Shown piece by piece: positions 15,477-31,026 of a stretch of 36,638 bases of DNA. This DNA comes from Nitrospinota bacterium (lineage in GTDB: Bacteria > UBA8248): assembly GCA_026706735.1 (NCBI GenBank), contig JAPOYD010000035.1, positions 1 through 36,638 on the forward strand, in the 5' to 3' direction. The notes beneath the pieces were generated by a model. That model was given only the letters and a program-made list of their open reading frames with translations. It was not told the DNA's origin and searched no databases. How positions within the stretch are numbered: position 1 is the first letter of the stretch; each line of letters begins with the position of its first letter. The position numbers and the translations under genes were made by a program.

Positions 15477-15941
15477 CTAGCCCAGACCCTCGATTGCCGC
15501 GAAGAGCTTATCGTCGTCGGGCTTCTCGGGCGGCGCCGCCGTTTCTTCCATGTAGGCGACGTTCCCGTCCTTGTTGACGAGAATCACCGCGCGGTTGCTG
15601 AAGCCCTTATCGTTCAGCAGGCCGTAGGCCGCGCACGTCCCCTTGCCGAAGAAATCGCTCAGCAGCGGGAATTCGATGCCGTATTGCTCCGCCCAGGCGG
15701 TGTGCGCGAACGGGCTGTCCACGCTGATGCCGATGACCTCGCAGTCGGCATTGTCGAATCTTGCCTTCTCCTGCTGGTAGGCGGGCAACTGCTCGCTGCA
15801 CACACCGGAGAAGTCGAACGGATAGAAGCAAAGCAGGACGTTCTTCTTTCCGCGGTAATCGCTCAACTTGATCGTATCGCCCTCGGCGAGGGTTCTCGGC
15901 AGCTCGAAGTCGGGAGCCGCGTCACCTACGTTCAAAGCCAT
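15477..15941 (-). CDS. peroxiredoxin (AhpC/TSA family, AhpE/BCP-like)
   Basis: A 154-aa thiol peroxidase that reduces hydrogen peroxide or organic peroxides. The peroxidatic Cys48 lies in [14 protein letters not shown], the PxxxS/TxxC active site with Ser in place of Thr. The thioredoxin fold is complete ([33 protein letters not shown]). Additional cysteines at C38, C67 and about C103 leave open whether a resolving Cys is used. It starts 12 bases after the superoxide dismutase stop with GGAGGG upstream, so the two form an oxidative-stress operon in which SOD produces the peroxide that this protein removes. Confidence 0.93.
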
Positions 15942-15953
15942 GGGAAAGCCCTC

Positions 15954-16541
<588 letters not shown>

Positions 16542-16781
16542 TTCGTTTTCTCCTTGATGGGAATGGAATGTTCCGATTCAGGTGATAACAATCAAACCAC
16601 CGAGGCCGCGGCCTCATGAATACTCAAATAACCGCAGGAAAAGCGATTTGAGACGCTGCGGATAAGTTTTCCGTTTAGTGTAAAATTGTATCTCTGCCCT
16701 GTTTCACAAGCGGGCGTATTCTACTTTCAGGGATTGGCCTGCGTCAAACCTCATCTTTGGCGAACAAAACCCGCTTTATGC

Positions 16782-18226: not shown

Positions 18227-18610
18227 ATGGACGACGCCGAGAAGAAGGCCCTGATGGATCAGATGGTCGCCGATCGCGGCTGGATTTTACCGGAGCAGAA
18301 GTTCTACATCGAAAAGGACCCCGAATATCACGCCAGACAGAGCGCGGTGTACAACCACGTCATCAAGCGCGAGGGCGCGCTTTCAGAAAAGATGCGCGAG
18401 CTCATCATCATCACCGCCCTATGCGTGCGCCTGCCGGGCACGGAGGTGGAGACTTACGTGAAAAACCACATCCGCCGCGCGCTGGACCTGGGCGCCACCG
18501 AGGATGAGATATTCGAGGCCGTGCAATGCCTCATCTTCCCCGCCGGCGGCCCCTCGCTGATGATGGGCATCAAGTGCCTCCGCGCCGTCCTGGAGGAGCG
18601 CAAGGCCTAA
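18227..18610 (+). CDS. carboxymuconolactone decarboxylase / AhpD-like family protein without CxxC
   Basis: A 127-aa all-helical protein of the CMD/AhpD superfamily: LSEKMRELIIITALCVRLPG followed by NHIRRALDLGATEDEIFEAV, the typical two-helix unit and GAT.dEi motif. The redox CxxC is absent (ALCVRLPGTEVE), so a peroxidase role is unlikely and a decarboxylase-like or structural role is more plausible. GGAG lies seven bases before the ATG at 18227. It is the first gene of the nine-gene catabolic cluster, and a redox-active relative lies two genes downstream. Confidence 0.85.
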   Translation: MDDAEKKALMDQMVADRGWILPEQKFYIEKDPEYHARQSAVYNHVIKREGALSEKMRELIIITALCVRLPGTEVETYVKNHIRRALDLGATEDEIFEAVQCLIFPAGGPSLMMGIKCLRAVLEERKA

Positions 18611-18643: not shown

Positions 18644-19381
18644 ATGGACAGAAGCATCTGGGCGACTTGGTACGATCTGCCGAAAGAAGACGAGGCCGAA
18701 TACAACGACTGGCTCCACCACACCCACATCAAGGACGCGCTCAAGCGCCCCGGCTACATGTGGGCGGCCCACTATGAACACGTCGACAGGGAATCGCCCA
18801 AATCGAAGCGAAAAGACCATCTGGCCTACACGGACGACCCCTCGATTCCGGGCGGCACGGAGTTTCTGCTGCTCTTCGGCGCCGCGAGCGCAGAGGTTTT
18901 CCTGAGTCCCAACCCCGCCCAGCTCGCGGAGACCTATTCCGATGAGACAAAGGCGATGATCGCCAAGAGAATCGGCGAGCGCACCGGCATCTTCACCGAA
19001 GTCGACAGGGTGAACGGCCCCGCCGCCGCCACCCGCGCGGTGGGCGGCGTGCCCGCACCGATTATCCAAATGGGCACGTTCAACTGCTTCACGCCCGAGG
19101 ATGATTTCGACCTGAGTTCCTGGTACGCGCAGGACCGCCTGCCCGCGATGAAGTACATGCGCGGCTGCGTGGGCACGCGCAAGCTCGTCTCTGTGGCGGG
19201 ATGGGCGAAGCACAGCATTTTTTATGAGTTCTCATCGCTGGAGAAAGTGCATGAGCACTACCCGCGCGTGGACAAGCTCTTCCCCGGCGAGAACGACTGG
19301 TCGTATCACGTATGCCAGCGCCTGCTCCACGCCCCCGGCTCGCCCACGCGCGGCAAGCGCATCTGGCCCCCCGTAGAATGA
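18644..19381 (+). CDS. two-repeat dimeric alpha/beta-barrel (EthD-like) protein
   Basis: A 245-aa protein with two related ferredoxin-like halves. The first has YNDWLHHTHIKDALKRPGYM, matching the EthD/ABM pattern (WHxxHxxx...PG); the second has LSSWYAQDRLPAMKYMRGCVG at a similar place. Such barrels occur in small monooxygenases and in accessory proteins of degradation pathways. No cofactor site is evident and the reaction is unknown. It lies 33 bp after the AhpD-like gene and 16 bp before the selenoprotein gene, so it is part of the same operon. Confidence 0.7.
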   Translation: MDRSIWATWYDLPKEDEAEYNDWLHHTHIKDALKRPGYMWAAHYEHVDRESPKSKRKDHLAYTDDPSIPGGTEFLLLFGAASAEVFLSPNPAQLAETYSDETKAMIAKRIGERTGIFTEVDRVNGPAAATRAVGGVPAPIIQMGTFNCFTPEDDFDLSSWYAQDRLPAMKYMRGCVGTRKLVSVAGWAKHSIFYEFSSLEKVHEHYPRVDKLFPGENDWSYHVCQRLLHAPGSPTRGKRIWPPVE

Positions 19382-19397: not shown

Positions 19398-20078
19398 ATG
19401 AGTTATATAAAACCCATACCCGTCGAGGAGGCGGAAGGCGAGGCCGCGAAGCTCTTCGAAGGCGTGACGAAGATGCTCGGCCGCGTGGCGAATTCCTTCG
19501 CCGTCATGGCCTATCAGCCCCATGTCGCCAAGGTCATCCTGCCGCTCACCGTCACCCTCATGCGCGAGGGGCTGGGCACGGTGCTGCCCACCAAGATCAA
19601 GGAAATCGCCGTCATCAAGACGAGCCACCTGAACGGGTGCGACTACTGACTCGGCCACAACACGGCGCTCGGTCGAGACGCCGGTGTCACCGAGGAGCAG
19701 GTGCAGGAAATCTGCTCGAACGCCTACACGGATTCAAAGACGCTGAGCGCGCGGGAGAAGGCCGCCGTCCTGTGGGCGGAGCACGTGACGCTGAATACCG
19801 CCAAGACGCGCGACGACGTGTTCTGCGAGGTGCGGCGGCACTTCGATGACACAGAATTCGTCGAACTCACCATGGTCATCACCTACTTCAACATGAGAAA
19901 CCGCTTTCAGGACGCCCTGCGCATCCCGCTCGATGACGCGAAGACAGTCTCCGGCATCACAATAGGACGCAGGCAGGACCCCGAGAACCTCAAGAACTAT
20001 CTGGCGGATGTGGTGGCGGCGTGGCCCGAGTCTTTCCCGGGGCCTGAGGATGACGATAATGGGGAGCAACCCGGATGA
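19398..20078 (+). CDS. AhpD-like selenoprotein with CxxU active site (in-frame UGA at 19647-19649)
   Basis: Reading through one TGA gives a 226-aa AhpD/CMD-superfamily protein. The active site is NGCDY-U-LGHN: Cys81, then UGA at codon 84 exactly where relatives have the second Cys of CxxC, with His87 and the usual TALGRDAGVTEEQV following. Both sides of the UGA are good family sequence in one frame (before: IKEIAVIKTSHLNGCDY; after: LSAREKAAVLWAEHVT). A hairpin lies downstream with apical loop GGTC. The family uses its CxxC in thiol redox chemistry, so Sec should raise reactivity. The stop overlaps the next start (ATGA). The alternative is a Cys-to-stop point mutation. tRNA-Sec, SelA, SelB and SelD genes are not in this window. 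Confidence 0.8.
19660..19687 (+). promoter_or_regulatory. candidate bacterial SECIS element
   Basis: ACA plus CGGCGCTC pairs with GAG(A)CGCCG(G)TGT, giving 11 base pairs with two single-base bulges on the 3' side. The apical loop is GGTC (19671-19674), 21 nt after the UGA. A short loop with G in its first two positions and a UGA-to-loop distance of roughly 16-37 nt are the accepted bacterial SECIS features. Confidence 0.7.
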
Positions 20079-20518
20079 GCGACAAGCCCGATTTCGTCTG
20101 GGAGAATCTCCAGGTCGGCATGACGGTCGGCGAGCGCAGCCTCACGGTGACGCAGGCGATGGTGGACGCGCACTGCGAGGCCTTGGGCGCGCGGCGGGAA
20201 TGGTATACGGGCGAATCCCCACTTGGGTGCCCCATCGCGCCGCCCATGATCTTCATCAACGACCTGCTCGCCATCTATGATGCGAACTACAAGCGCTTCG
20301 GCACCATCCACGCCAAGCTCGGCTACCGCTTCCACCGGCCCGTGCGGGTCGGCGAGAGGGTGCACCAGAAAGTCACGGTGACCGACCTCTACGTGAAGCG
20401 CGAGAAGGGCTGGATCGTGAGCGAGCTCGCCGTTACGGACGAGGCGGGAGAGTTGCTGCTCACCTCTGCGCACACTTCAGTCTTGAGCCTCACGAGAAAG
20501 CACGCAGATGATGACTGA
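20075..20518 (+). CDS. MaoC/FAS1-like hotdog protein, non-catalytic type
   Basis: A 147-aa single-hotdog protein related to the N-terminal half of MaoC-like dehydratases. IAPPMIFINDLL and KLGYRFHRPVRVGERVHQKVTVTDL are typical strand and helix segments. The catalytic Asp-x4-His is not present; the equivalent part reads LGARREWYTGESPLG. Such proteins commonly pair with a catalytic partner to form a heteromeric enoyl-CoA hydratase, as in ChsH1-ChsH2 of steroid catabolism. The partner is probably the next gene, which overlaps by 11 bp. Confidence 0.8.
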   Translation: MSDKPDFVWENLQVGMTVGERSLTVTQAMVDAHCEALGARREWYTGESPLGCPIAPPMIFINDLLAIYDANYKRFGTIHAKLGYRFHRPVRVGERVHQKVTVTDLYVKREKGWIVSELAVTDEAGELLLTSAHTSVLSLTRKHADDD

Positions 20519-20942
20519 TACCCCCCTCGAAAACTTAGAAATTGGAGACGCCCTCCCCGAGCGGACGCACAAGGTGGATTGGGAGGATATCCTCAAGTTC
20601 AACCGCTACGTCACCGGCGGCGTGGACACGAAGAACATCCACACGGACGATGAGGTGGCCAGAAAGGCGGGTCTCCCCCGCGCTGTGGCGACGGGCCGCC
20701 ACCCGGTGTCGTTCATCACCGAACTCATGGTCGATCACTTAGGCTTCGGCTTCATCACGGGCGGCGAGGTGGACGTTTCCTTCGTAAAACTGATTTTTCC
20801 GGGCGACGTTCTGACGCTTAAGGCTGTGCTCAAGGAGAAAACGCCCGGTGAGGGCGCAACGCGCTATCTCTTCGAGGTATCGCTCACGAACCAGGACGGC
20901 GCAGCCGTAACGGTCGGCACGGCCAGCGGCCGCCTGGCCTGA
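20508..20942 (+). CDS. MaoC-like (R)-enoyl-CoA hydratase subunit, catalytic type
   Basis: A 144-aa hotdog protein with the hydratase motif D40-TKNI-H45 followed by TDDEVARKAGLPRAVATGRH, the equivalent of the GDxNPIH...A...G...AHG pattern. It would add water to an enoyl-CoA. GGEVDVSFVKLIFPGDVLTL is the standard C-terminal strand. It overlaps the preceding non-catalytic hotdog gene and precedes the acyl-CoA synthetase by 10 bp. Confidence 0.85.
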   Translation: MMTDTPLENLEIGDALPERTHKVDWEDILKFNRYVTGGVDTKNIHTDDEVARKAGLPRAVATGRHPVSFITELMVDHLGFGFITGGEVDVSFVKLIFPGDVLTLKAVLKEKTPGEGATRYLFEVSLTNQDGAAVTVGTASGRLA

Positions 20943-20952
20943 TATCCGCTCG

Positions 20953-23064
20953 ATGACCGCGCACGAATCCCTCAAGAGCCTGTTTCACCCCGAATCCTTC
21001 GCGGTGGTGGGCGCGGCTTCGGACCTGAACCGCCTGGGCGGCATCCCCTTGCGGCTCACGATGCGCTACGGCTTTCCCGGCCCCATCTACCCTATCAACC
21101 CGAGGCGCGAGGAGATAGCAGGGCTGAAATGCTACCCCGACGTCGACTCCCTGCCCGAAGCGCCCGAGTTCGCCTTGATCTGCACCCCGCGTGAGGACGT
21201 GCTCCCCGCCCTCGTCCAGTGCGCGGAGCGCGGCGTCAAGGCAGCCGCCGTCATCACTTCGGGCTTCGCGGAAACGGGCCCAGAAGGCGCGGCGCTTCAG
21301 GAGAAAATCCTGGCGCTGCGCGATGAATCCGGCATGCGCGTGCTCGGCCCCAACTGCATGGGCGTGGTGCACGTGCGCTCTAAGCTGATGGCCACGTTCA
21401 CGATATCCATCCGGGACGACGACCCGCTTATTCCGGGGGCGGTGGCCATCGTCACCCAGAGCGGGGCGATGGGAGCCTGCATGCTCACGGGCTTTCAGGA
21501 GAGCGGCTCGGGAATCAGCAGCCTCGTGAGCTTAGGGAACGAGGTGGACGTGGATTTCGCGGAGTGCGTCGAATACTTCATCGACGACCCGCACACGCGC
21601 GTCATCTGCGGGTATCTCGAATCGGTGCGCGACGGCGAGCGCCTGAAGCGCGCCGCCCTGCGCGCGCTTGCGCGGGAAAAACCCATCGTGCTGCTCAAGG
21701 GCGGCAAGACCGAGGAGGGCGCGCGCGCCGCGCGCAGCCACACCGCCGCCCTCACGACCGAGAGCGACGTTTTTGACGCATTCGCCGCGCAATACGGCGT
21801 TCAGGTGCCGGATTCGATGGACGAGTTCATCGAGGTCGCGGATTTCCTGGCGCGCTCAAAGCCGATCCAGGGAAACGGGGTGGGCGTTTTGAGTTTCTCG
21901 GGCGGTCTGGGTTCGCTCGCGGCGGACTTATGCACCGAGGCAGGCCTGGCGCTGCCCATCCTCGCGGAAGGTACGCAAGCGAAACTCGCGGGCGTCCTGC
22001 CCGACTACGCGCCCAAGGACAACCCGGTCGACCTCGTATCCCTGATGGTCAGCAAACCCGAGAGCCAGCCGCTCAAGACGGCGGGGGAAGCGGTGGCGGG
22101 GGATGAGAGCGTGGACGCCCTGCTCTTCATGATGGGCGTCTACCACCACGTGGGCGAGCAGATAGCGGCGGAGGTGAAGGCGCTGTTCGAAAGCTCGCCC
22201 GTGCCCGTCGCCTTCGCCTGGCTCACCGGCCCGCGCGAGCAGATACAAGCGCTCAGGAAAGCCTCCGTGCCCGTATTCGGCGATTACGCCCGCGCGATCC
22301 GGGGACTCGAATCCCTCTTGTCCCTCAAAAACGCGCGCGAGGCGGCCGCATCCCGAACCCGTTCCATTGACCATGTTCGGGCGGAGAAGGCCAAGGGAAT
22401 CATTCGCGAAGCGCCCTCTTCGCCCGACGGCTTTCTGCCGCCCGAAGCCTGCGCGAAGGTTCTCGACCTCTACAAAATTCCGAGGCCGAGAGAAGCGCTC
22501 GTGAACACGGCGGAAGAAGCGCTCAAGGCCTGGGAGGAGTTTCAGGCCCCCGTCGCCCTCAAGGTCGTATCGGAACTCCTTTCGCACAAGACGGAAGCGG
22601 GCGGCGTCATTTTAGGTCTTAACACGCCTGATGAGGTGCTGAGCGCGGCTCAAAAACTGCTCGCCCTCGCGGACGACGCGCGCCTTCTGGTGCAGGAGAT
22701 GATAGAGGACGGCCTGGAACTCCTCGTCGGCATATCGAACGACCCGACGTTCGGCCCGTGCGTGACGGCGGGACTGGGCGGCGTGTACGTGGAGACGTTA
22801 GACGACGTGGCGCGTCTTCTGCCTCCTTTCGAGGCCGGGGAAGCCGCGCGCGCGCTGTCGGGGCTCCGCTCGCGCGTCATCTTCGACGGCTTCCGGAGCG
22901 GGCCGGCCGTTCAAATCCCGCACATATCCGATATAATGGTCAAAATCTCCGAACTGGCGACAGAACTGGAAGATACAGTCGCCGAGATGGATATCAACCC
23001 GCTCATCGCCACGGCGGAAGGCTGTCTTGCCGCCGACGTGCGGATAAAGATCAATTCCCGGTGA
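20953..23064 (+). CDS. ADP-forming acyl-CoA synthetase (fused alpha-beta)
   Basis: A 703-aa acyl-CoA/acetate-CoA ligase that makes acyl-CoA, ADP and Pi from acid, CoA and ATP or the reverse. The N-terminal CoA-binding domain (FAVVGAASDLNRLGGIPL) and succinyl-CoA-ligase-like domain (VAIVTQSGAMGACM) are followed by the phosphorylated His263 in RSHTAAL, then a flavodoxin-like domain (GVLSFSGGLGSLAADL). The C-terminal ATP-grasp half starts near residue 490 (FLPPEACAKVLDLYKIPRP) and contains VALKVVSELLSHKTEAGGV and EMDINPLI. All parts appear intact. In this cluster it probably activates the substrate acid. Confidence 0.93.
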   Translation: MTAHESLKSLFHPESFAVVGAASDLNRLGGIPLRLTMRYGFPGPIYPINPRREEIAGLKCYPDVDSLPEAPEFALICTPREDVLPALVQCAERGVKAAAVITSGFAETGPEGAALQEKILALRDESGMRVLGPNCMGVVHVRSKLMATFTISIRDDDPLIPGAVAIVTQSGAMGACMLTGFQESGSGISSLVSLGNEVDVDFAECVEYFIDDPHTRVICGYLESVRDGERLKRAALRALAREKPIVLLKGGKTEEGARAARSHTAALTTESDVFDAFAAQYGVQVPDSMDEFIEVADFLARSKPIQGNGVGVLSFSGGLGSLAADLCTEAGLALPILAEGTQAKLAGVLPDYAPKDNPVDLVSLMVSKPESQPLKTAGEAVAGDESVDALLFMMGVYHHVGEQIAAEVKALFESSPVPVAFAWLTGPREQIQALRKASVPVFGDYARAIRGLESLLSLKNAREAAASRTRSIDHVRAEKAKGIIREAPSSPDGFLPPEACAKVLDLYKIPRPREALVNTAEEALKAWEEFQAPVALKVVSELLSHKTEAGGVILGLNTPDEVLSAAQKLLALADDARLLVQEMIEDGLELLVGISNDPTFGPCVTAGLGGVYVETLDDVARLLPPFEAGEAARALSGLRSRVIFDGFRSGPAVQIPHISDIMVKISELATELEDTVAEMDINPLIATAEGCLAADVRIKINSR

Positions 23065-23074
23065 GAGGACCCGC

Positions 23075-23509
23075 ATGAGCCAAAGGATCACGCCCGAAAT
23101 ACGCGCCCTGGTGGGGCGAAAGCACGGCCCCTACCGCGTGCGGGTCGAGCAGGGGGCGATAGAGAAATTCGCGGACGCAATCGGCGACGACAACCCCGCC
23201 TACAGAGGAATTGACGCCATTGCGCCGCCGACGTTTCCGACCACCTTCCGGCCCGGGGACGCCTATCCGGATCTTCCGCCGGACTTCGGCGACGTGGGGC
23301 TTCACGCCTCCCAGGTCTATGAGGTCGAGCGGCCCATCCGCGCGGGCGATGAACTGGACGTATCCTTCACCATCGTCGACATCACCGAAAAATCGGGACG
23401 CACGGGCGACCTCGTCTTCGTCGAGCGCGAATACGAGTTTTTAGACGCGCGCGACGGCTCGCGCATCGGCGGCGGCAAGTGGGTGTCGCTCCGGCGTTTC
23501 AGGAACTGA
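23075..23509 (+). CDS. FAS1-like dehydratase (MaoC N-terminal type) subunit
   Basis: A 144-aa hotdog protein resembling the MaoC N-terminal dehydratase domain: KFADAIGDDNPAYRG, APPTFPTTF, GLHASQVYEVERPIRAGDEL and VFVEREYEF. The catalytic motif reads GDDNPAY, with Tyr in place of the His, so this is the non-catalytic partner. GAGAGG precedes the ATG. It starts 10 bp after the synthetase and 10 bp before the catalytic partner. Confidence 0.85.
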   Translation: MSQRITPEIRALVGRKHGPYRVRVEQGAIEKFADAIGDDNPAYRGIDAIAPPTFPTTFRPGDAYPDLPPDFGDVGLHASQVYEVERPIRAGDELDVSFTIVDITEKSGRTGDLVFVEREYEFLDARDGSRIGGGKWVSLRRFRN

Positions 23510-23519
23510 AGGAGAGAGG

Positions 23520-23921
23520 ATGAGCTACAAACAAGGCGACGCGCTCCCCGAACTCGTGAAGGCGCCCGTCTCGCGGACCCAGCTCGTGAAATACGCGGGC
23601 GCGAGCGGGGATTTCAACCCCATCCACTATGACGACGAAGCGGCGCGCTCGGGCGGCCTCGAGGGTGTCATCGCCCACGGGATGCTCTCGATGGGCTTTC
23701 TCGGGCAATTCGTCGAAACCGCCTTCGGCGCGGGCCGCTACAAGCGGCTGGAAGTCCGCTTTCAGGGCATGGTGAAGCTCGGCGAGGTCATCACCTGCCG
23801 GGGCGTCGTGACCGGTATCGCGCAAGAGAATGGCCGGGAATACGCCGCCTGCGAGATCGAGGCGGTAGATTCAGACGGCCGCGTCGTCACAGCGGGCAGC
23901 GCGCAAGCCTGGCTGGACTGA
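23520..23921 (+). CDS. MaoC-like enoyl-CoA hydratase, catalytic subunit
   Basis: A 133-aa catalytic MaoC domain. The hydratase-2 motif is intact: GASGDFNPIHYDDEAARSGG with D31 and H36, then VIAHGMLSMGF. AAGGAG precedes the ATG. With the preceding FAS1-like protein it should form a heteromeric hydratase or dehydratase acting on a CoA thioester. It is the second such pair in the cluster. Confidence 0.92.
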   Translation: MSYKQGDALPELVKAPVSRTQLVKYAGASGDFNPIHYDDEAARSGGLEGVIAHGMLSMGFLGQFVETAFGAGRYKRLEVRFQGMVKLGEVITCRGVVTGIAQENGREYAACEIEAVDSDGRVVTAGSAQAWLD

Positions 23922-23950: not shown

Positions 23951-24694
23951 ATGAGACTGAAAGACAAGAACGCCCTCGTCACGGGCGCTGCGCAGGGCAT
24001 CGGACGCTCGGTTTGCCAGCGCTTCGCCGAGGAGGGCGCGAAGGTGCTCGTCGTCGACATGAACGAGGAAGGCGGCGAGGAGACGGCGCGCCTGATCAGG
24101 GAAGCCGGCGGCGAGGCGCTCTTCCACAAGGCCGACGTGAGCAGCCTCGCGGAAGTCGAGGGCGCGCTCGACGCTTCGGAGGCCGCGCACGGGCCGATCC
24201 ACGTCATGGTGAACAACGCCGGCATCGTGCGCGCGGCCATGCTGCACAAGATGAGCGAGGCGCAGTGGGACGAGGTGATCGCAGTGCATCTCAAGGGCAC
24301 GTGGACGGGCATCCACGCGGCGGCCAAGCGCATGATCCCCCGAAAAGAGGGCCGCATCATCAACGTCACCTCGGGCGCGGGGCTTCGCGGCACCATCGGG
24401 CAGATCAACTACTCCTCGGCCAAGATGGGCATCGTCGGTGCGACGCAGAGCGCGGCCCGTGAGCTCGGCCGCTACAACATCACCGTGAACTGCGTCTCGC
24501 CCGCGGCCATCACCCCCATGACGGAGACGATTCGCACGGACGAGCGATTCGAATCCAAATATCTTGAGCGCATCTGCCTGGGCCGGTGGGGAGAGCCCGA
24601 GGAGATGGCGGCGGGCTTCGTCTTCCTGGCGTCGGACGAGGCGAGCTACGTGACGGGCATCGTGTTACGAATTGATGGTGGTCTGGGGATGTAG
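23951..24694 (+). CDS. short-chain dehydrogenase/reductase (FabG-like)
   Basis: A 247-aa classical SDR. The cofactor motif is TGAAQGIG (11-18), with D36 suggesting NAD preference, then NNAG (88-91) and the catalytic S141, Y154 and K158 (YSSAK). The C-terminal DEASYVTGIVLRIDGGLGM is typical of FabG-like enzymes. After hydration it would oxidise the resulting 3-hydroxyacyl-CoA, completing a beta-oxidation-like round. AGAGGA precedes the ATG. It is the last gene of the cluster and is followed by a long repeat region. Confidence 0.93.
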   Translation: MRLKDKNALVTGAAQGIGRSVCQRFAEEGAKVLVVDMNEEGGEETARLIREAGGEALFHKADVSSLAEVEGALDASEAAHGPIHVMVNNAGIVRAAMLHKMSEAQWDEVIAVHLKGTWTGIHAAAKRMIPRKEGRIINVTSGAGLRGTIGQINYSSAKMGIVGATQSAARELGRYNITVNCVSPAAITPMTETIRTDERFESKYLERICLGRWGEPEEMAAGFVFLASDEASYVTGIVLRIDGGLGM

Positions 24695-29134: not shown

Positions 29135-29881
29135 ATGACCCAGCCGTGCCGTCTCGAATACCGGGGCTTTCACCAGCTCGAACTCGTGCGCCACGGCGGT
29201 GCGGAAATCCGTATCGGCGGGCGCCTGCGCGCTCTGCAGGAACCTCCGCCCAACGTGGCCTCGCGGCCTCCCGTCGACACGGTGCAGTACGTCTACGCGA
29301 GGTGGGATGAGCGCAGAGAGCGCGTGAAGCTGAGCGCCTCCACTACCGGACATGAAACCCTGGAAGGCGAGGAGGTGATGCGCGGCGACCCGGCGGCGCT
29401 TCTCGTCGGCATGGGGAGACCCTATGAGAGCAGGCCCAGGCACTACCACTGGGCGGACAGGCCCGAGCACAGGACGCTCATCCTGAGCCGGCACAACCGA
29501 AAGCGGATCGAGTGGCAGCGGCGTTTGCGCGCGGATGCGGCGGTTTCTCCGGGCGAATGGAGCGAGGTATCGCCGGACTTCGCCGTCTCTTTTCTCGTGT
29601 GGGGAGAGGAGGAGGCGCATCTCGAAATCGAGGGCCGCGTGAGGAGCGATGCCGCATCACCGCTGCTTCTGGGCGTAGGCCTCGACGGCGCGCCGCCCGA
29701 ATCGGCAGACGATGAGATTACGCCGCAAGAGGCGTCGTCACAGGCCTTCAGTCTTAAATTCGAGAGGCGGTTCTCGCGCGATGAGGAGGGTTTTCACACC
29801 CTCTCTTTATTCGGAAAAACCGAAGACGCACCGTGGGCCCTCCTCGGAGGCGCGGCGCTGCGGTATTCCACCTTAGGCTAG
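29135..29881 (+). CDS. protein of unknown function
   Basis: A 248-aa protein I do not recognise. The N-terminal part is basic (CRLEYRGFHQLELVRHGGAE), the middle holds ETLEGEEVMRGDPAALLVG and SRPRHYHWADRPEHRTLIL, and the C-terminal half looks like beta-strands (FAVSFLVWGEEEAHLEIEG, PLLLGVGLDG). No signal peptide or membrane segment is seen. GGAGGAG lies before the ATG at 29135. Its end is directly followed by the SelA-like gene, so a shared pathway is likely. Confidence 0.7.
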   Translation: MTQPCRLEYRGFHQLELVRHGGAEIRIGGRLRALQEPPPNVASRPPVDTVQYVYARWDERRERVKLSASTTGHETLEGEEVMRGDPAALLVGMGRPYESRPRHYHWADRPEHRTLILSRHNRKRIEWQRRLRADAAVSPGEWSEVSPDFAVSFLVWGEEEAHLEIEGRVRSDAASPLLLGVGLDGAPPESADDEITPQEASSQAFSLKFERRFSRDEEGFHTLSLFGKTEDAPWALLGGAALRYSTLG

Positions 29882-31026
29882 GGAGCAAGGCGATCAACGA
29901 ATCCCCGCAAAACCCAAAATTCCTGAACGACCTCGGCATGCGCCGCGTCATCAGCGCGCGAACCCGCCAGACCGTCTTCGGCGGCTCGAAAATGAGGCCC
30001 GAGGTATGGGCCGCCATGCGGGAGGCGAACGCCGCCCAGGTGGACATGAACGAGTTGCACGCGAAGGCGGGCGCGCGCATCGCCGGGATGACGCAGAACG
30101 AGGCGGCCTACGTCACGAGCGGTTCCGCCGCCGGCCTCGTGCTGTGCGCGGCCGCCTGCATCACGGGCAGAAACCCGGCCCTCATGGACAGGCTCCCCTT
30201 CACCGACGGCTTGAAGAACGAGATCGTGATCCACCGCTTCCAGCGAAACCACTACGACATCAACATCCGCCAGGCGGGGGCGCGGCTCGTCGAGATCGGC
30301 TCGCACCGCCAGACCCACCCCTGGGAGCTCGAAGAGGCCATCGGCGAGAAGACAGCGGGCATCTTCTATTTCCCGGGCCGCTACGCGGGCGGGAACATCC
30401 TGAAGCTCGAGACCATCATCGAGATCGCGCACGAGAAAAACGTGCCCGTGGTCGTGGATGCCGCGGCGCAGCTTCCCCCGTCCTCGAATCTCTGGCGCTA
30501 CACCAGGGAGATGGGCGCCGACGCCGCCATCTTCAGCGGGGGAAAGAGCATCGGCGGACCGCAGAACACCGGGATCATCCTGGGGAGAAAGGAGATCGTC
30601 GAGGCCTGCGCCATGATGGGAAGCCCCAGATATTCGGTCGGTCGGCCGATGAAGGCGGGGCGCGACGACATCGTGGGCCTGCTCTGCGCGCTCGATCATT
30701 ATCTGGACGGCGGCGAGACAGACCAATACGCCCACAACGAGCGATGGTGCGAGTTCTACATGGAACGCATGAGCGGGATGAAGGGGCTCTCGCCCCGCGT
30801 GAGGCGCCCCAACTCCCTGGGGCAGGATTTGCCCGAAGTCGTGATCGAAATCGACCCAGAAACGCTCGGGAAATCGCGCGATGCGATTGTGGATGCGCTG
30901 TGGGCGTGCGAGGTGCGGGTGCAGGTCGGCATCTCCGGCGAGTCTGAAATCTTCCTCTCCCCCGACCCGCTCACGGATGCGGACGCGGAATACCTCTGGG
31001 CGAGGCTGGTGGAGGTTGTTTCGTGA
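29833..31026 (+). CDS. SelA-like PLP-dependent enzyme (start uncertain)
   Basis: A fold-type I PLP enzyme of the SelA/DgaE-like group: LGMRRVISARTRQTVFGGSK matches the family N-terminus (LGvrrVINa..T..GGS), VTSGSAAGL binds the cofactor phosphate, VVVDAAAQ holds the PLP Asp and FSGGKSIGGPQNTG the Schiff-base Lys (D209 and K238, counted from the GTG at 29833). Relatives include ammonia lyases and SelA; it is not evidently SelA itself, since it lacks the long SelA N-terminal domain. The start is a problem: the GTG at 29833 has no ribosome site and overlaps the upstream gene, the ATG at 29938 would cut the conserved N-terminus, and GGGAG stands eight bases before an ATC at 29894. Confidence 0.85.
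   Translation: MGPPRRRGAAVFHLRLGSKAINESPQNPKFLNDLGMRRVISARTRQTVFGGSKMRPEVWAAMREANAAQVDMNELHAKAGARIAGMTQNEAAYVTSGSAAGLVLCAAACITGRNPALMDRLPFTDGLKNEIVIHRFQRNHYDINIRQAGARLVEIGSHRQTHPWELEEAIGEKTAGIFYFPGRYAGGNILKLETIIEIAHEKNVPVVVDAAAQLPPSSNLWRYTREMGADAAIFSGGKSIGGPQNTGIILGRKEIVEACAMMGSPRYSVGRPMKAGRDDIVGLLCALDHYLDGGETDQYAHNERWCEFYMERMSGMKGLSPRVRRPNSLGQDLPEVVIEIDPETLGKSRDAIVDALWACEVRVQVGISGESEIFLSPDPLTDADAEYLWARLVEVVS

Follow-up and report, generated by a model that had tools for sequence, protein, structure and literature searches.

A candidate selenoprotein of the CMD/AhpD fold, from a predicted near-exclusively selenocysteine clade, in a Nitrospinota genome

The window analyzed here (36,638 nucleotides, contig JAPOYD010000035.1 of the Nitrospinota bacterium assembly GCA_026706735.1) carries a CMD/AhpD-like gene whose reading frame begins with an ATG and runs for 226 sense codons if a TGA at codon 84 is counted among them (Table 1). 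The motif around this codon is N-G-C81-D-Y-U84-L-G-H87-N, which puts the TGA at the second position of the CxxC motif of CMD/AhpD proteins. The frame ends with a TGA at 20076 to 20078, which shares an ATGA with the start codon of the next gene (ATG at 20075). A Pfam CMD (PF02627) match spans the internal TGA (residues 60 to 128, 45.9 bits versus a gathering cut-off of 23), and GC content by codon position is alike on both sides of it (0.60/0.38/0.83 before, 0.63/0.41/0.81 after). An earlier, sequence-only reading had described a single in-frame TGA in an AhpD/CMD frame, its position on the second cysteine of the family motif, and good coding sequence continuing in the same frame up to the ATGA overlap; reading of the frame and the Pfam match across the TGA bear out all three. 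Nothing comparable was found when the coding runs of the whole window were checked for other in-frame TGAs. In-frame stops at 2068, 15954, and 18608 were considered as signs of further selenoproteins and rejected; since TAA or TAG divides these three other same-frame pairs, they are separate genes.

Table 1. Features of the candidate selenoprotein locus, in coordinates of the window
Feature	Position	Strand	Basis
CMD-family gene without CxxC motif, conserved upstream partner (ATG start inferred)	18227..18610	+	Pfam CMD, 43 bits; adjoins Sec-CMD in five other-genus loci
245-aa protein, no Pfam family over cut-off (weak DUF4286 similarity)	18644..19381	+	Also adjoins two other Sec-CMD paralogues
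Predicted Sec-containing CMD/AhpD-like gene (226 aa with U84)	19398..20078	+	ORF, Pfam match, congener orthologues, AlphaFold model, PDB fold matches
Cys81 codon, predicted resolving residue of CxxU	19638..19640	+	Invariant in alignment A2
Predicted UGA selenocysteine codon 84	19647..19649	+	ORF reading, conservation in clade
Predicted bacterial SECIS hairpin, loop GGUC at 19671-19674	19663..19683	+	Fold, codon bias, covariation
FAS1_DH/MaoC-type dehydratase subunit	20075..20518	+	Pfam
MaoC-like dehydratase	20508..20942	+	Pfam
ADP-forming acyl-CoA synthetase (CoA-binding, Succ_CoA_lig, ATP-grasp)	20953..23064	+	
Second FAS1_DH/MaoC-type subunit	23075..23509	+	Pfam
Second MaoC-like dehydratase	23520..23921	+	Pfam
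Short-chain dehydrogenase (SDR), FabG-like	23951..24694	+	

Throughout the genus, the selenocysteine-type CMD gene (Sec-CMD) sits in an operon of constant order: a CMD gene without CxxC, the 245-aa protein, Sec-CMD, FAS1_DH and MaoC, acyl-CoA synthetase, FAS1_DH and MaoC again, and SDR. Its placement in a MaoC/acyl-CoA synthetase cluster by the sequence-only reading thus holds within the genus, while in other genera the neighbors are different. In the closest relatives, Sec-CMD is preceded by a CMD gene lacking the cysteines, and at five loci from other genera this CMD gene is the only member of the operon that remains beside it; the surroundings there comprise TctA/TctC transporters, molybdopterin oxidoreductase, GFO/IDH oxidoreductases, or acyl-CoA dehydrogenase. 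Paralogues in the window's own genome lie near genes for M20 peptidase, amidohydrolase, nitroreductase, luciferase-like monooxygenase, and TctA. In the genus, Sec-CMD may serve the cluster together with the CxxC-less CMD protein, its putative interaction partner, and the enzymes of CoA-thioester hydration and oxidation. The cluster probably carries out the breakdown of an organic acid, and the neighborhoods as a whole suggest that Sec-CMD helps, as a catalyst or an accessory factor, in taking up and degrading organic compounds. Proteins of the 245-aa type adjoin three Sec-CMD genes in the genome (18644 to 19381 in the window, L100:6507-7232, and L104:7562-8302). Close to the operon, on the reverse strand at 15477 to 16577, are a superoxide dismutase-like and a peroxiredoxin-like gene in tandem, families that we named by eye from the translations.

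Orthologues in five congeners (87 to 92% identical) keep the TGA and have no other stop, and orthologues in other genera keep it as well. Values of dN/dS after the TGA (0.09 to 0.23) indicate purifying selection on the downstream codons. A search of 18 genomes of the family with a clade profile gave 123 matches of at least 173 bits, counted by hand from the listing, and all except two of these (121/123) carry the TGA. Below the clade, profile scores drop to about 100 bits and less, and proteins with and without TGA are mixed there. Both TGA-free members are second domains of fusion proteins from one genome, with the arrangement CMD(CxxU)-CMD(SxxC), and the second domain has lost the histidine too. 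The fusion loci are L115:6548-7978 and L116:3023-4429, both on the reverse strand. The window's own genome holds nine clade members and three distant TGA-bearing CMD genes, or about nine to twelve Sec-CMDs, and one cysteine-containing CMD in it (C84) falls outside the clade. Further clade members, every one with TGA, occur in MAGs titled Nitrospinota, Tectomicrobia, Rhodospirillales, and Acidimicrobiales. No cysteine orthologue was found at an E value of 1e-40 among 290 genomes, 272 of them from other families, and in plasmids the cysteine-containing relatives among the records listed were distant (at most about 33% identity). By sequence, then, the gene is assigned to a clade of the CMD fold that is predicted to be near-exclusively selenocysteine containing. 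Extra stops in some paralogues (e.g., C79 and C76) were considered as second recoding sites and rejected; because they fall close to where the match ends at its C terminus and are absent from the profile alignment, we read them as terminal stops.

The least credible account of the TGA is a broken gene, in which a cysteine codon (TGC or TGT) was mutated or misread: TGA is a single base away from a cysteine codon, but five independently assembled congeners and divergent relatives have the same TGA, the sequence past it is under purifying selection, nearly all family members share it, and the hairpin that follows is conserved, so that this account is refuted by the conservation of the TGA. Sequencing error in particular is excluded because the independent assemblies of the five congeners and many other MAGs have TGA at this position. 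The sequence-only reading had named a misread TGC or TGT, and decay of the downstream region in relatives, as outcomes that would count against it; the assemblies and the dN/dS values show neither.

The predicted SECIS element, CGGCGCUC-GGUC-GAG-a-CGCCG, is an 8-bp hairpin with one bulged A and a free energy of -11.5 kcal/mol. It is spaced 21 nt from the UGA, and its loop begins 22 nt past that codon. A hairpin with a GGTC loop at this distance had been noticed from the sequence alone, and folding confirms it and fixes its limits. The GGUC loop is presumably also that of E. coli fdhF. Published rules for bacterial SECIS elements (PMC13188914) specify a loop of 3 to 9 nt with G in its first two positions, a stem of 4 to 16 bp, a distance of 16 to 37 nt from the UGA, and a free energy of at most -7.5 kcal/mol, and the hairpin agrees with every one of them. 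A search of positions 19600 to 19760 against Rfam at a permissive threshold matched no named element. The stability of the hairpin by itself is moderately unusual (z = -2.1); in GC-rich coding DNA this is a weak argument, and comparison across relatives is the strong one.

It is this comparative evidence, from codon bias and covariation, that makes the hairpin more than chance. The loop codon (codon 92) reads GGT in 57 of 66 related genes, compared with 8.7% of glycine codons elsewhere in those genes (binomial P = 5e-51, a value inflated by relatedness), and Gln93 is encoded by CAA in 40 of 41 cases against a background of 24%. Codon 91 has T or C at its wobble position, and this base covaries perfectly with the A or G at the second position of codon 93 (41:0:0:23, 64 counted). 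Cells of the hairpin changed on both sides number 50, versus 21 in shuffled alignments and fewer in slid controls; shuffled and slid controls are exceeded in the numbers of paired cells and of two-sided changes and in the covariation score, and the number of pair types shows no excess over either. Mapped on the tree, the two covarying traits show just five and six changes, so the P values for covariation and codon bias are inflated by the relatedness of the sequences; two supported independent pairs, both changing in step, are too few for a phylogenetic sign test. In some paralogues the lowest-energy hairpin under loose rules sits in another register. For bacterial SECIS elements with a GGUC loop, the clade supplies a natural alignment of good quality.

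Conservation of this stretch also bears on whether the UGA might be a programmed stop, with the 83-residue product as the main one and the downstream frame a separate gene starting from the GTG at 19701. An ORF from that GTG (19701 to 20078) is indeed open, but within the 51 nt that separate UGA from GTG lie the codons of the invariant residues H87, N88, G92, and G96 along with the conserved hairpin, and both the domain and the fold span the two halves, which leaves programmed termination extremely improbable.

The sequence-only reading had further proposed that lack of tRNA-Sec or SelB would overturn it; tRNA-Sec, SelA, SelB, and SelD were searched for in the genome and all were found. The tRNA-Sec has a UCA anticodon (75.8 bits) and a predicted fold with an 8+5 bp acceptor/T arm. 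SelA (578 bits) and SelB (382.9 bits) are encoded on one contig, and SelD scores 334 bits. The SelD gene carries an in-frame TGA near its N terminus, followed by a GGUCC-GGA-GGACC hairpin, and SelD is thus itself a predicted selenoprotein (L098:1472-1560). RF2 is also present in the genome, and UGA therefore keeps its stop function as well. Across the family, 16 of 18 genomes have a tRNA-Sec that exceeds the gathering score, the other two being 67% and 70% complete. The selA region (L112, contig C22) has a third-position GC content near 0.47, compared with about 0.8 for most of the genome. We considered contamination by the selAB contig on account of this low GC and rejected it: SelA is 87 to 94% identical in five congeners and was found in 11 of 11 good-quality genomes of the family, and for these reasons we regard it as native, although the region may have been acquired horizontally. 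Within the window, an aminotransferase class-V protein (29833 to 31026) has weak similarity to SelA (about 41 bits) and is not SelA.

UGA reassignment and odd tRNAs with a UCA anticodon occur in other bacteria, and distant homologues have cysteine at the aligned position. It is conceivable on these grounds that codon 84 is read as cysteine by a tRNA-Cys(UCA), or as tryptophan or glycine under a changed genetic code. Decoding as another residue is nevertheless very improbable here: the genome encodes canonical tRNA-Sec, SelA, SelB, and SelD along with RF2, the in-frame TGA occurs only at this place in the window, the gene itself terminates on TGA, and a SECIS-like hairpin lies downstream. Altogether, the UGA at codon 84 almost certainly directs insertion of selenocysteine, as had been proposed, a prediction supported by the selenocysteine machinery, the conserved TGA, the undecayed downstream region, and the covarying hairpin. 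SelB and tRNA-Sec would read the codon, directed by the hairpin, to give a full-length selenoprotein of the CMD/AhpD fold.

The AlphaFold model is a single compact helical protein (mean pLDDT, 92.5). Its best PDB fold matches are AhpD-like proteins; 6k40, 3c1l, 2prr, and 6ohi (the debrominase Bmp8) are matched at E values below 1e-5, and the fold neighbors also include 2pfx (AhpD-like). These matches to CMD folds and the Pfam score place the protein in PF02627. With the AhpD-type structures 6k40, 3c1l, 2prr, and 2pfx it shares the fold over about 180 to 190 columns (TM score, 0.64 to 0.70 on the query) and the layout of the CxxC motif; it differs from these and from TIGR01926 proteins, which have Cys for Sec, and is longer by about 45 residues at its C terminus. 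In alignment A2, C81, U84, and H87 are invariant and E69 is conserved at 90% or more, so that the AhpD-type set of Glu, Cys-x-x-Cys/Sec, and His is retained. The histidine is at +3 from the second Cys/Sec, versus what we take to be +4 in Mycobacterium tuberculosis AhpD. The predicted C81-x-x-U84 pair, with E69 and H87, is arranged similarly to the active site of AhpD.

By analogy with the family, the selenol of U84 would attack a peroxide or another electrophilic substrate, Cys81 would resolve the U84 intermediate by forming a selenenylsulfide, and the enzyme would be recycled by a cellular thiol reductant, as in AhpD. Family, fold, and motif make a selenol-based AhpD-type peroxidase or oxidoreductase the most likely function, and we consider it probable. 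Alternatively, the selenol may act on a catabolic substrate. One example would be reductive dehalogenation of the kind carried out by Bmp8, a debrominase of the CMD fold; the active form could be a hetero-oligomer that includes the neighboring CMD protein without CxxC. Bmp8 (6ohi and 6ohj) is among both the sequence and the fold matches, and the mutant crystallized with tribromopyrrole is C82A, a change in a catalytic-site cysteine. The conserved CMD partner, and paralogues near transporter, nitroreductase, luciferase-like monooxygenase, and amidohydrolase genes, would also fit a nonperoxidase role. However, Bmp8 shares only about 20% identity with the protein and is outranked by AhpD-type proteins, and no halogen-related gene was seen in the operon; dehalogenation of the Bmp8 type is possible but unsupported, and we regard a nonperoxidase function as unlikely. 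A broader proposal, which we consider quite unlikely, is that the near-obligate selenocysteine branch, multiplied in this little-known, MAG-represented family and paired with or fused to CMD subunits without CxxC or CxxU, makes up hetero-oligomeric catabolic enzymes, each specific for its substrate. Sec would be the catalytic nucleophile of these enzymes, which would not act as general peroxidases.

AhpD-like CxxU selenoproteins (COG2128/pfam02627) were reported from the Sargasso Sea survey in 2005 (PMC1088965), so the kind itself is not new; they also appear in the GOS survey (PMC2398784) and, as AhpD-like/CMD proteins, in a review table (PMC13188914). The protein described here shares with the Sargasso and GOS sequences the CMD fold, Sec at the second CxxC position, an origin in environmental bacteria, and a downstream hairpin with a G-containing apical loop. 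In the GOS data, cysteine homologues outnumber Sec forms in both AhpD-like 1 (902 Cys versus 299 Sec) and AhpD-like 2 (207 versus 70), whereas the present clade, which may include some of the GOS sequences, is almost all Sec, with several paralogues per genome. None of the curated NCBIfam selenoprotein or subfamily models takes in the protein. The best-scoring one, NF053654 (GroundWater_YciW, YciW-related [seleno]protein), aligns over residues 1 to 178 at 79 bits against a cut-off of 310, and the protein is therefore not a member; TIGR01926 (peroxidase-related enzyme) gives 66 bits against 81.8. Within a limited literature search, the near-exclusive use of Sec, the expansion to about nine paralogues in one genome, and the conserved Cys-less CMD partner may be new.

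We would expect standard gene calling to report such a selenoprotein gene in two parts or not at all, and a branch of more than 100 genes in 18 genomes could be lost likewise. Since Sec is kept almost without exception across divergent paralogues, the question of what it offers that Cys does not becomes directly testable within one fold. In Rhodospirillales MAGs (L077, L088, and L092 to L096), Sec-CMD genes occur as pairs of near neighbors, arranged either in tandem or on opposite strands; one of the genes at L088 contains, in addition, an in-frame TAA around residue 179, which may be a sign of decay.
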